From: a virus
DNA length: 62,607 nt
Virus record (IMG/VR): IMGVR_UViG_3300017728_000004
Location: 1-62,607 of that record
Strand: one strand, 5' to 3'
Part shown: positions 31,678 to 34,622 of the stretch, one piece after another
Position numbering within the stretch: position 1 is the first letter of the stretch
Layout: every line of letters begins with the position of its first letter
Made by a program: the position numbers and the translations under genes
Notes under the pieces: model-generated
What the model was told of the DNA's origin: nothing
Seen by the model: the letters and a program-made list of their open reading frames with translations, nothing else
The model's database searches: none

Positions 31678-31703
31678 GGATCCCTTGACGGGGGTCCTTT
31701 TTT
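31678..31703 (+). terminator. Rho-independent terminator with promoter in its loop
   Basis: Stem GGATCCC (31678-31684) with GGGGTCC (31691-31697, one G-T pair), loop TTGACG, then six T. It ends the small-gene cluster. Confidence 0.85.
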
Positions 31704-31713
31704 ATGCCATACT
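31685..31713 (+). promoter_or_regulatory. sigma70-like promoter of the R-M-like operon
   Basis: TTGACG (31685-31690) is exactly the terminator loop. The spacer is 17 bases, and the -10 is CATACT (31708-31713; TACTAT two bases later is an alternative). The leader ATAAGAGTCAA recurs at 35.4 and 36.9 kb. Confidence 0.7.
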
Positions 31714-31735
31714 ATAAGAGTCAAGCAGGCACCCC

Positions 31736-31957
31736 ATGACCCGCTCAACCAGACCATTGAAAATGTCTGAAGCATTCAAACTAGTGAAGCATGCTGGAGG
31801 CGTTGTAACCTCAGCAGGCAAGCATCTGAAGGTTTCACACCCTTCCATCCTTCAGACTTTTACGCTACCCTACGGGGGCAGCAGAGGACGCCCCACGCTC
31901 TCTCCAGGCATCTCATCTGAACTCCGTAAGTATCTCAAACTAACCCATGTATCCTAA
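31736..31957 (+). CDS. HicA-like small protein
   Basis: A 73 aa protein with a pattern like the HicA toxin double-stranded-RNA-binding fold: helix AFKLVKHAGG, a strand with GKHLKV where HicA has its catalytic GSH, a strand FTLPYGG, then PTLSPGISSELRKYL for the C-terminal helix. The His is kept but the Ser is replaced by Lys. No HicB-like partner is seen next to it. It overlaps the start of the putative nuclease by 11 bases, so they are co-translated. HicA call is tentative. Confidence 0.4.
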   Translation: MTRSTRPLKMSEAFKLVKHAGGVVTSAGKHLKVSHPSILQTFTLPYGGSRGRPTLSPGISSELRKYLKLTHVS

Positions 31958-32555
31958 TAAACTTAAAGAAGTTCTTGCCTTTCTTAATTCAATTCAGATT
32001 GATATTGCTGAAGGACATGAAGACGGACGTATTAACAGTATCACTGATGAGGACACACTAATTGATCTTCTGATCGAAGAGTTTGGTGCTGACAATATCA
32101 TCAAACCACCCCCAAGATGCTGGTGGGATGTTAAGATCTTCGGTTACTTCTTTAACATCAAGTCCTCTGGATATGATGCTGCTGATAACTTTTCTTCCAA
32201 GTCTGCTATTCTGTGGGCACTCACCTCATTAAGTGAGGAAGATGTAGTTATCAAGGGCAGAGATCAGTGGAAGCAGTTTCAAGATAGACTGAAAGATGCT
32301 AAGGATACTGACAACAATAGAGACTATTATATCTTATCAATTAATAAGAATACCAATGAAGTTCATCTGTCCTCACTGAAGACACTGAACAGAATCACAT
32401 CTAACGGTAACAATCTACCATTCCAAATCAATTGGAAGCATAACACTACTACGGTCAATCGTACTCATAGACAGGCATACGATTTTCTGGTACAATGTTA
32501 CAAGGAATCTGTACGCAAAAAACTATCACAGCATGACGACTATGAATCTCTTTGA
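31947..32555 (+). CDS. Putative PD-(D/E)XK-type restriction endonuclease
   Basis: A 202 aa protein overlapping both neighbours. Residues 59-75 (WWDVKIFGYFFNIKSS) fit the PD-(D/E)XK nuclease core: a catalytic Asp at 61 and NIK at 70-72 in the place of ExK. An acidic helix with Glu residues precedes it. Size and position directly before a DNA methyltransferase gene fit a type II restriction enzyme. NxK rather than ExK is unusual but tolerated in some families. The N-terminal half and target site cannot be assigned from sequence. Confidence 0.5.
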   Translation: MYPNKLKEVLAFLNSIQIDIAEGHEDGRINSITDEDTLIDLLIEEFGADNIIKPPPRCWWDVKIFGYFFNIKSSGYDAADNFSSKSAILWALTSLSEEDVVIKGRDQWKQFQDRLKDAKDTDNNRDYYILSINKNTNEVHLSSLKTLNRITSNGNNLPFQINWKHNTTTVNRTHRQAYDFLVQCYKESVRKKLSQHDDYESL

Positions 32556-33306
32556 GTTACATCAAGGTGACTGTCTTTCACTGATGAATGACATTCAGGA
32601 TAAATCCATCGATCTTATCTGCTGTGATCCCCCATACGGCACCACGAGCATCAAGTGGGATGAAGTTTTGGACTTTAACACTATGTGGGCACAATATGAT
32701 CGCATATTGAAACCCAAGGGTGTAATCGTGCTGTTTGGATCACAACCATTCTCGGCACAATTGATCTGCTCTAAGTTAGATTGGTTTCGCTATGAGTTAG
32801 TATGGAACAAGAACAAATGTGGTAGTCCTGGACTAGCAAAGAAGCGACCAATGAAGACGCATGAGAATATACTCATCTTCTACAAAGAAGCAGGTGGAAC
32901 ATATAATCCACAGATGGAAGTTGGAGAACCGTATGCACGGACTAGCAAGAATCCTGAGGGTTATGTAGGACGCAAGAATGACCATGGTTATGGTATGAAA
33001 CCGCGTAAATCTTTCGAGAACAAAGGAACACGCTATCCCAAGTCAATTGTTAACATCTCTAGAGACTTTAGCGCACAACAGCAAGTGCATCCCACGCAAA
33101 AACCTGTGCCTTTAATGGAGTGGTTGATCAAAACTTACTCTAATGAGGGTGAAACTGTGCTGGACAATTGCATGGGTTCAGGTTCTACTGGTGTCGCTGC
33201 GGTAAAACTTAATAGAAAGTTTATTGGCATTGACAATGATGCGGAATATGTTAGAATCTCTCAAGAAAGAATTGAATCAATCCCTATCGATATTACAAAT
33301 CTATGA
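32533..33306 (+). CDS. DNA methyltransferase (N6-adenine or N4-cytosine, beta class)
   Basis: A 257 aa protein starting at ATG 32533 (ATG 32542 is an alternative) inside the end of the nuclease gene. Motif IV is CCDPPYGTTS near residues 30-40. A target-recognition region in the middle has KNKCGSPGLAKK. HPTQKPVPLMEW and the AdoMet-binding motif DNCMGSGSTGVA (about 213-224) follow, then FIGIDND. Motif order IV before I marks the beta class. It methylates an amino group in a specific DNA sequence, protecting phage DNA, and pairs naturally with the putative nuclease. Confidence 0.9.
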   Translation: MTTMNLFELHQGDCLSLMNDIQDKSIDLICCDPPYGTTSIKWDEVLDFNTMWAQYDRILKPKGVIVLFGSQPFSAQLICSKLDWFRYELVWNKNKCGSPGLAKKRPMKTHENILIFYKEAGGTYNPQMEVGEPYARTSKNPEGYVGRKNDHGYGMKPRKSFENKGTRYPKSIVNISRDFSAQQQVHPTQKPVPLMEWLIKTYSNEGETVLDNCMGSGSTGVAAVKLNRKFIGIDNDAEYVRISQERIESIPIDITNL

Positions 33307-34568
33307 CATACACAGCATTGGACGAAAAGTTTTTGACTGAAAACACAGAAATCATCACAGAAGAGAATCTTAATGAGAATCTTTTCTTCAATAATGAGAA
33401 TCTTGCTCATCATCGTACTATGTCAGAACTACCTCAGGGTGGTTACTATCGTCTGACTACTGCACTCAATCGCAGGCAACGTCGTGCATATGGAAGACTG
33501 CTTAAAAAGCAACTTCAAGCAATCGATATCAGGCAAATTCATCCTCCTTGCGTACCACTTAGCAACCGTAAAACTGGTGAGGTTATCTATCCTAATGGAT
33601 TGCAGATTCGTGCGGATGTGACTACTAACGTTGATACTATTGCAAAGTTTCAGAAGGTAATCGCTGCTAATGAATGGGAGGCAACTAAAGATCAGATGAT
33701 GTTGATTGTGCTCCCTGAAGAATACCAATACATCGATGAATTGACTGGGGTTAAAGTTATCTACGGTTTGCTCGATGGCAATCATCGATTCAAGGCAATT
33801 AATGGTCTCGCGGAAGATGTTATCTTTGCATGGGTTCTTGATATGAATCTAGGAGAGATCTGGGAGTTTGGTAATGCCTTCTGCAATCGTGATACTAATG
33901 TAGTTCAACCCAGAACTAATGCTGATATCTCTAACGCACTGGTTAAAACTGTTACTGACCCTGAGTCCGATTTGCATCAGTTAGTAGAGGCAACTAAAGT
34001 AGAAGGATATACTGGAAAGAATATTGATGAGATTCTAGAGGCGAAACTTAGGGAAGATTATGATGTAGGTGGCACACAAATCAATGCCGTTCTTCGTATC
34101 TTCAATGCTAGTGAAGAGCATGAATATCACTCTGATATTAAACGCTACTATGCTCCTGAGGTTAGTGAGTGGGTCACTCGCAATCGTCCTGGATGGGTGA
34201 TTATGGATGGTGCTAAAACCTCCGAGGGAATTTATAGAAACCCCGAGACAGATCAGATCTGTCTTGTGTATATCGATAAAGGATCTGTTATGCTACACAC
34301 TGTTTTGAAACTTGCTAAGATGGTGCAACAATATCCTGACAAAGGTTTCATGGTGATTCATGTTGTTTCTCCTGAGGTTGCTAACTCCTTCACCGAGGAA
34401 AGTATTAAAGCAAAGGATAATGTTATCAAAAATGAATTCTATGAAATGATCCGAGATATTGCAGGTCTAGGTAATATGTTAGACACCGACAAAGGTATTC
34501 ACATTCGTCACGCTAGATTGCCTCTATATCCAAATGAAATGACTCGTAACAGTTTGATATATGTGTGA
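33303..34568 (+). CDS. ParB-like DGNHR-domain protein
   Basis: A 421 aa protein whose ATG overlaps the methyltransferase stop. The middle has YGLLDGNHRFKAING, the ParB/sulfiredoxin-like signature (DGxHR) found in ParB-type CTPases/nucleases and in DndB-like proteins. The C-terminal part (about 240-421) is helical with no domain I recognise (ESDLHQLVEATK, VLRIFNASEEHEY). Co-translation with an R-M-like pair suggests a DNA-binding or accessory function for that system. Alternatively it may be an independent host-takeover factor. Confidence 0.6.
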   Translation: MTYTALDEKFLTENTEIITEENLNENLFFNNENLAHHRTMSELPQGGYYRLTTALNRRQRRAYGRLLKKQLQAIDIRQIHPPCVPLSNRKTGEVIYPNGLQIRADVTTNVDTIAKFQKVIAANEWEATKDQMMLIVLPEEYQYIDELTGVKVIYGLLDGNHRFKAINGLAEDVIFAWVLDMNLGEIWEFGNAFCNRDTNVVQPRTNADISNALVKTVTDPESDLHQLVEATKVEGYTGKNIDEILEAKLREDYDVGGTQINAVLRIFNASEEHEYHSDIKRYYAPEVSEWVTRNRPGWVIMDGAKTSEGIYRNPETDQICLVYIDKGSVMLHTVLKLAKMVQQYPDKGFMVIHVVSPEVANSFTEESIKAKDNVIKNEFYEMIRDIAGLGNMLDTDKGIHIRHARLPLYPNEMTRNSLIYV

Positions 34569-34590: not shown

Positions 34591-34622
34591 TTGCCCCACA
34601 GCACCCCAAAATCGTGTATATT
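34591..34622 (+). promoter_or_regulatory. Weak sigma70-like promoter
   Basis: TTGCCC (34591) and TATATT (34617-34622), with a poor spacer of 20 bases; an alternative GTGTAT gives 17. The leader AGAGTCAAAGGAA matches the better promoters at 35.4 and 36.9 kb, which supports it. Confidence 0.4.

Follow-up and report, generated by a model that had tools for sequence, protein, structure and literature searches.

Restriction-modification (R-M) systems are usually viewed as bacterial defences against phages. Here, we analyzed a phage-borne gene cluster with R-M-like features at positions 31736-34568 of a 62,607-base virus record (IMGVR_UViG_3300017728_000004; this whole stretch is called the window), whose source is a T4-like cyanophage. 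The cluster encodes a HicA-like protein, a candidate nuclease, a beta-class DNA methyltransferase and a protein carrying a DGNHR motif. Our analysis supports a type II-like R-M pair made up of the nuclease and the methyltransferase, which is already known as a pair. We consider it probable that the cluster represents an R-M module of the phage that acts on unmodified host or rival DNA, in which the nuclease can be exchanged and a ParB-like protein serves as an accessory.

Virus-encoded R-M genes have been described in chloroviruses, in which a methyltransferase gene and a nuclease gene are adjacent, as in the window (PMC7019647). The chlorovirus nucleases are proposed to degrade host chromatin, and mutual exclusion is not caused by them. 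In contrast to the phage studied here, chloroviruses infect eukaryotic algae, and no ParB-like partner of their R-M systems is mentioned in the accessible part of that article. Phage proteins in which a ParB-CTPase fold is fused to an N6_N4 methyltransferase (PF01555) have also been reported, and binding of ATP, CTP or GTP is known for several proteins with this fold (PMC12704722). These fused proteins are a precedent for a ParB-like companion of a methyltransferase, albeit in fused form. The reported system is a single protein detected by PF02195, for which the accessible part of the article mentions no nuclease gene, whereas the DGNHR protein of the window is encoded by a separate gene, is detected by no Pfam model and has a nuclease alongside.

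The same methyltransferase and the same nuclease occur as a pair in the Synechococcus phages ACG-2014a, S-MbCM100 and S-RIM12 and the Prochlorococcus phages Syn33 and P-HM2 (GenBank), where the genes are already labelled "restriction endonuclease" and "DNA adenine methylase". The nuclease is 95-99% identical to its relatives in 38 GenBank records and 61% identical to that of P-HM2. In three GenBank records inspected, the two genes share the 23-base overlap seen in the window but, unlike in the window, no HicA gene lies in front and no DGNHR gene behind. The helicase gene downstream of the operon encodes a protein 98.5% identical to its ACG-2014a and Syn33 counterparts.

An earlier note, made from the sequence of the window alone, had described four overlapping genes at this locus. 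The list of open reading frames (ORFs) bears this out, with four + strand ORFs overlapping in series by 11, 23 and 4 bases:

31736..31957, + strand: HicA-like protein, 73 amino acids (aa)
31947..32555, + strand: PD-(D/E)XK-type restriction endonuclease candidate, 202 aa, with E35, D61, N70 and K72
32533..33306, + strand: beta-class N6_N4 DNA methyltransferase, 257 aa, with DPPY at 32-35 and motif I near 211-220
33303..34568, + strand: DGNHR protein, probable ParB/sulfiredoxin-fold R-M accessory, 421 aa

The 202-aa protein had been read as a putative PD-(D/E)XK nuclease, and the predicted structure agrees. When its AlphaFold2 model (16 input sequences; predicted local distance difference test (pLDDT) 82.6) was compared using VIA-align, the top match was R.SwaI (5tgq; Z 12.4, 170 of 202 residues, root-mean-square deviation 3.4), followed by HincII (Z 10.8) and EcoRV (Z 8.0), and HincII was also found by Foldseek (expect value (E) 0.004). 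The likeness to these type IIP enzymes extends over nearly the whole chain, although they share only 9-15% identity with the window nuclease, which has N for D/E in the D-xn-(D/E)xK motif. The nuclease profile matched ThaI over residues 34-74, a segment spanning the active site (E 0.01), and the protein matched phrog_3978, endonuclease (E 7e-137); no Pfam family was found above its cut-off. The motif residues D61, N70 and K72 had been quoted correctly, and like E35 they are identical in all 19 relatives aligned, including the product of a Mycoplasma prophage gene (L007:3923-4606; loci are cited by L numbers) that is ~25% identical to the cyanophage nuclease. The protein is predicted to have an EcoRV/HincII/SwaI-like restriction endonuclease fold. 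No support was found for the nuclease having come from bacteria or plasmids: a scan of genome contigs with two peptide patterns gave 23 stretches and 0 relatives, and tblastn of plasmids gave none, both searches being of limited sensitivity.

The 257-aa protein matches PF01555 (E 1.3e-37; 130 bits against a cut-off of 26.7) and MTase_II of PADLOC (E 1.2e-72). Its best solved relative is M.MboIIA (1g60; E 3.1e-24); the likeness to this and other beta-class PF01555 enzymes is near full-length, although the window enzyme is phage-borne. In beta-class enzymes, motif IV lies ahead of motif I, and DPPY indeed precedes the glycine-rich motif I of the window protein, in line with its previous description as a beta-class methyltransferase with clear motifs. 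Because motif IV is DPPY, the methylated base is probably adenine.

Adjacent nuclease and methyltransferase genes, as in type II R-M systems, are present, and the predicted fold and the family fit. Counting the window, 26 distinct records carry this nuclease, and the methyltransferase adjoins it in 25 of them; contig 3300017786_000028 is almost identical to the window and not independent of it. The exception is the Mycoplasma prophage, in which an annotated cytosine-specific (C5) methyltransferase lies 10 bases downstream of the nuclease, so that methyltransferases of more than one class serve as partners of this nuclease family. In P-HM2, the pair is located near regA and gp62, away from the helicase, and retains the 23-base overlap, which suggests that it moves as a unit. 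Conserved linkage among relatives, which the earlier note had proposed to look for, is evident, and the type II pairing that it suggested is supported by this linkage together with the nuclease fold, the methyltransferase family and the nuclease swaps in related modules described below.

The pairing could also be read differently, with the methyltransferase as an anti-restriction shield against host enzymes and the 202-aa protein as an inactive or homing-type nuclease. Cyanophages commonly have N6A methylases (14-genome class table in the accessible part of PMC3037559), a second methyltransferase adjoins the first in P-SSM7, and the usual acidic residue of the nuclease is replaced by N70. However, the ThaI segment aligned with the nuclease has a non-acidic S at this very position, the four putative active-site residues are invariant, type II restriction enzymes are the top fold matches, and the two genes stay paired in all but one record. 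We regard the shield explanation as quite improbable.

In related modules, the nuclease slot holds other proteins. In P-SSM7 and AG-345-E15, another protein, R2 (phrog_6927), is the nuclease, and its D...ExK pattern is clear (GHDR..DD..TEIKFS). In L038, which has a DGNHR protein with 92% identity to its P-SSM7 counterpart, a third protein, R3, occupies the slot. By position and motif, R3 is a candidate nuclease. It was found in six contigs, and a methyltransferase lies directly behind it in 5 of 5 uncut ones. R3 (L038/L127, L128-L132) is 193-195 aa long, has no family match and takes the place of R2 beside closely similar methyltransferases. In a FastTree tree of methyltransferases (58 distinct sequences out of 77 collected), the 22 partners of the window-type nuclease formed one clade with 74-100% identity, while 31 R2 partners and 5 R3 partners formed the other. 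The R3 partners fall at four places within the R2 clade, and R2 and R3 partners are 77-97% identical. This supports a swap of R2 and R3 beside nearly identical methyltransferases in related modules. A possible fourth nuclease family, recognized by its motif, was met in the control scan described below, in a locus (L185) where an ORF with PDFIVVHPDEIKFIECKS is followed by a DGNHR gene (35% identical) and then by a PF01555 methyltransferase gene (E 4.1e-39):

L185:1048-1758: nuclease-like ORF, 236 aa, PD-(D/E)XK-like motif, no family match

A scan with the L185 DGNHR-type protein returned its own contig only. Judged by sequence, the nuclease slot is filled by three unrelated families, possibly four.

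To place the DGNHR gene, homologues were searched with the window protein or its alignment, which gave 14 loci, 12 of them assessable. Left out of the count were L029 and L031, which are cut at the gene, L040, L041, L051 and L083 from the nuclease search, and L185 from the control scan. At all 12 assessable loci, a methyltransferase and a nuclease candidate were both present within 1.5 kb. The gene directly after DGNHR (phrog_500; best 80 of 241 viral loci) served as a control and had a methyltransferase within 1.5 kb in 14/80 loci and any of the three nucleases in 0/80. The corresponding Fisher p-values, 2.7e-8 for the methyltransferase and 2.8e-15 for the nucleases, are too small because some of the DGNHR loci depend on one another (3300017786_000028 nearly duplicates the window, and L035 and L036 are close relatives). 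The window group has the gene order nuclease-methyltransferase-DGNHR; in others, including P-SSM7 and AG-345-E15, the order is DGNHR-nuclease-methyltransferase, and P-SSM7 has a 2-oxoglutarate (2OG) oxygenase in addition. The link between a ParB-like gene and the R-M pair had been suggested for the window, and the linkage found here goes well beyond what a single sequence could reveal. No description of it was found in the literature searched, which included only a minority of subscription journals and no preprints. We regard the DGNHR protein as a probable accessory and as the new part of the module. In L083, the DGNHR gene begins right at the end of the contig and is followed, 16 bases further on, by a different methyltransferase-like ORF. 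A 230-aa ORF near this DGNHR-methyltransferase pair (L083:1705-2397) has a weak match to a Lar-like restriction alleviation family (E 0.05).

Alternatively, the locus could hold an ordinary phage type II R-M pair, with DGNHR and HicA as unrelated neighbours that modular gene traffic near the UvsW-like helicase keeps together. HicA is indeed variable, DGNHR is absent from 18 of the 26 nuclease records (some of which are short contigs), and the region is plastic, the gene order around the helicase differing among the window, L012 and L030. Chance neighbourhood is at odds, however, with the presence of both enzymes at every assessable DGNHR locus, in two gene orders and with three nuclease families, to which L185 adds a fourth arrangement with DGNHR. 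We consider this explanation unlikely.

The DGNHR motif lies at residues 158-162 of the 421-aa protein, and G159, H161 and R162 are invariant in 14/14 aligned homologues, in agreement with the listing of a DGNHR protein as the fourth gene. No family model claimed the protein in searches of Pfam and other family libraries. Among 13 members scanned, weak matches were obtained to GmrSD_N of the GmrS (DUF262) type (3/13), SbnI (3/13), TIGR00180 ParB (1/13) and SerK (1/13), and sulfiredoxin matched a profile on the DGNHR segment weakly (E 2-3). These weak matches all point to one superfamily, so that a ParB/sulfiredoxin fold is probable, and the protein probably binds nucleotides. The DG[NS]HR motif and a Q-x-R pair of the family also resemble the DGQHR/DGQQR motifs of DGQHR/DndB proteins (accessible part of PMC4619093). 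No Pfam/NCBIfam match to TIGR03187 or PF14072 (DndB/DGQHR) was obtained at E 1, and the partners seen were methyltransferases and PD-(D/E)XK nucleases; neither dnd genes nor an HNH partner was seen, with no dedicated search made for them. A scan of genome contigs with one DGNHR pattern gave 48 stretches and 0 relatives, with limited sensitivity.

The possibility that DGNHR is itself a nuclease was rejected: residues 280-421 reached Z 5-6.4 against PD-(D/E)XK proteins, which is the tool's range for common arrangements, and by eye no acidic-acidic-lysine set is conserved among the homologues. This structure comparison barely covered the ParB-like region, and the missing ParB rows there are uninformative. 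A second uncharacterised family that looks ParB-like and has a VDGHTR-like motif, phrog_2615, is also found beside phage methyltransferases, with members at:

L024:6342-7412: phrog_2615 member
L124:3468-4505: phrog_2615 member
L125:3501-4631: phrog_2615 member
L126:3432-4385: phrog_2615 member

A common origin of DGNHR and phrog_2615 was unsupported (hhalign probability 0.4%). In S-RSM4, a phrog_2615 protein lies between "restriction endonuclease II" and a methyltransferase. A phrog_5931 protein is located directly 5' of the nuclease in two further loci (L021:165-1091 and L022:165-1091), and its motif EKQHTLKAI bears a loose likeness to the DGQHR type.

We propose that the four genes would form one transcription unit of a T4-like cyanophage encoding a type II-like R-M module, in which the 257-aa methyltransferase would mark the phage's own DNA and the 202-aa nuclease would cut DNA without the mark. 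For a lytic phage with a protective methylase and a cutter, unmodified host and rival DNA are the natural targets, and the phage may attack the chromosome of its host, the DNA of rival phages, or both. Given R-M activity, breakdown of host DNA, the role proposed for the chlorovirus enzymes, is our first guess, at slightly below an even chance. The DGNHR protein would act as a ParB/sulfiredoxin-fold, probably nucleotide-binding accessory of the module. Since it persists across changes of nuclease family, a role with the methyltransferase or in a common step, such as DNA loading or timing, is more likely than one with a particular nuclease. The analysis shows the order of the genes, their conservation and selection, the predicted fold of the nuclease, the linkage relative to a control and the replacement of the nuclease; from these we infer the enzyme activities, methylated base, target DNA, timing, nucleotide binding and role of DGNHR. 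A bolder version, in which DGNHR is an obligate subunit of a new R-M subtype and acts as a ParB-fold nucleoside triphosphate switch that is loaded on phage DNA and times the methyltransferase and an interchangeable nuclease, is put forward tentatively and is on the unlikely side.

Several observations weigh against the proposed module. N70 occupies the position of the usual D/E of the D-xn-(D/E)xK motif in all 19 sequences. DGNHR accompanies the window-type nuclease in 8 of the 26 records only, which indicates that it is dispensable. Among 81 uncut locus records of R2 (duplicates included), 38 have no methyltransferase of the kinds searched for next to the nuclease, indicating that at least R2 can exist without a nearby methyltransferase and weakening the claim that it is always half of an R-M pair. 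The ParB/sulfiredoxin-type matches of DGNHR reached at best E 0.005-0.06, amid unrelated matches that were similarly strong. In addition, the DGNHR structure model was poor (pLDDT 65.7, predicted template modelling score (pTM) 0.45), and comparisons with it gave no reliable fold match. Unpaired R2 fits a nuclease directed against DNA other than the phage's own, which may be protected by a distant gene or by other means. The R2 motif was intact by pattern match in 40/46 unlinked and 33/45 linked records. R2 without an adjacent methyltransferase was seen in L120, L121, L122 and many of L050-L118, where a solitary phage nuclease is possible.

All four operon genes are under purifying selection. 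The ratio of nonsynonymous to synonymous substitution rates (dN/dS) between the window and its relatives was 0.03-0.17 for the nuclease, 0.08-0.14 for the methyltransferase and 0.07 for DGNHR. For HicA it was 0.12 between the window and L012, while the synonymous rate (dS) was saturated against L004. Some DGNHR pairs were less constrained (L035-L036, dN/dS 0.26; L038-L039, 0.45). The lowest dS of the nuclease was found against ACG-2014a (0.19) and that of the methyltransferase against L030 (0.44), and since the two genes are closest to different relatives, a mosaic origin is suggested.

The R-M modules analyzed here appear as a property of marine phages that is strongly purifying-selected, with related modules changing the nuclease and keeping the methyltransferase. 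If DGNHR works with the pair, R-M gains a third, perhaps nucleotide-dependent component; were it truly an obligate subunit, marine phages would own a three-part module accepting unrelated nucleases. Because the pair carriers Syn33 and P-HM2 are named isolates, the module offers a direct route to asking whether lytic phages restrict to consume host DNA or to exclude rivals.

The first gene of the operon is treated here as cargo or an accessory. The 73-aa protein matched two PHROG families labelled "toxin" (phrog_18430, E 7e-27; phrog_353, E 0.0038) and weakly matched HicA3 (4p78; E 0.48), without a Pfam match. HicA is in the operon in 3 of the 26 nuclease records, two of which are near-identical contigs; this distribution rules it out as an essential part. 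In S-RIM8 and S-RIM50, HicA lies downstream of the helicase, apart from the window-type nuclease family. The toxin label, and the GKH motif with its His kept in the window, L012 and L004 (the alignment row L005:3961-4143, in a wrong frame, was ignored), could suggest that HicA and the R-M genes work together as an addiction unit of a toxin-antitoxin-like kind. However, 23 of the 26 records showed no HicA next to the nuclease, no HicB-like antitoxin of PF15919 is present within the 62.6-kb fragment (PF05534 was not searched), and addiction brings little gain to a lytic phage, which leaves such a unit very improbable indeed. The earlier note had taken the whole as an R-M-like operon with HicA-like and ParB-like partners; its R-M pairing and ParB-like linkage stand, while the HicA partnership is weak.

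Two further features precede the operon:

31678..31703, + strand: intrinsic-terminator-like hairpin and T run (stem 31678-31697, 8 pairs, T6 tail)
31707..31724, + strand: promoter-like leader CCATACTATAAGAGTCAA, which recurs elsewhere in the window

The terminator-like hairpin may divide the operon from the genes upstream. The element TATAAGAGTCAA is present in 3 exact copies in the window (31713, 35401 and 36918), with 0 expected from 100 shuffles, and in a near copy at 34622, and all four sites are immediately 5' of ORFs. No excess in the window was observed when two mismatches were allowed (7 found, 10.35 expected) or in a scan for the sigma-70 consensus (11 against 11.6 expected). The operon had been credited with one promoter carrying an operator-like element. 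The element is real, but since it also precedes other genes, a special operator on the operon promoter was ruled out; it is probably an ordinary repeated phage promoter element, its promoter function being inferred. A similar leader lies directly 5' of the nuclease gene in Syn33 and ACG-2014a, where a comparable hairpin-like leader was also seen by eye ahead of this gene, indicating that only some relatives have HicA interposed between the promoter and the nuclease gene.

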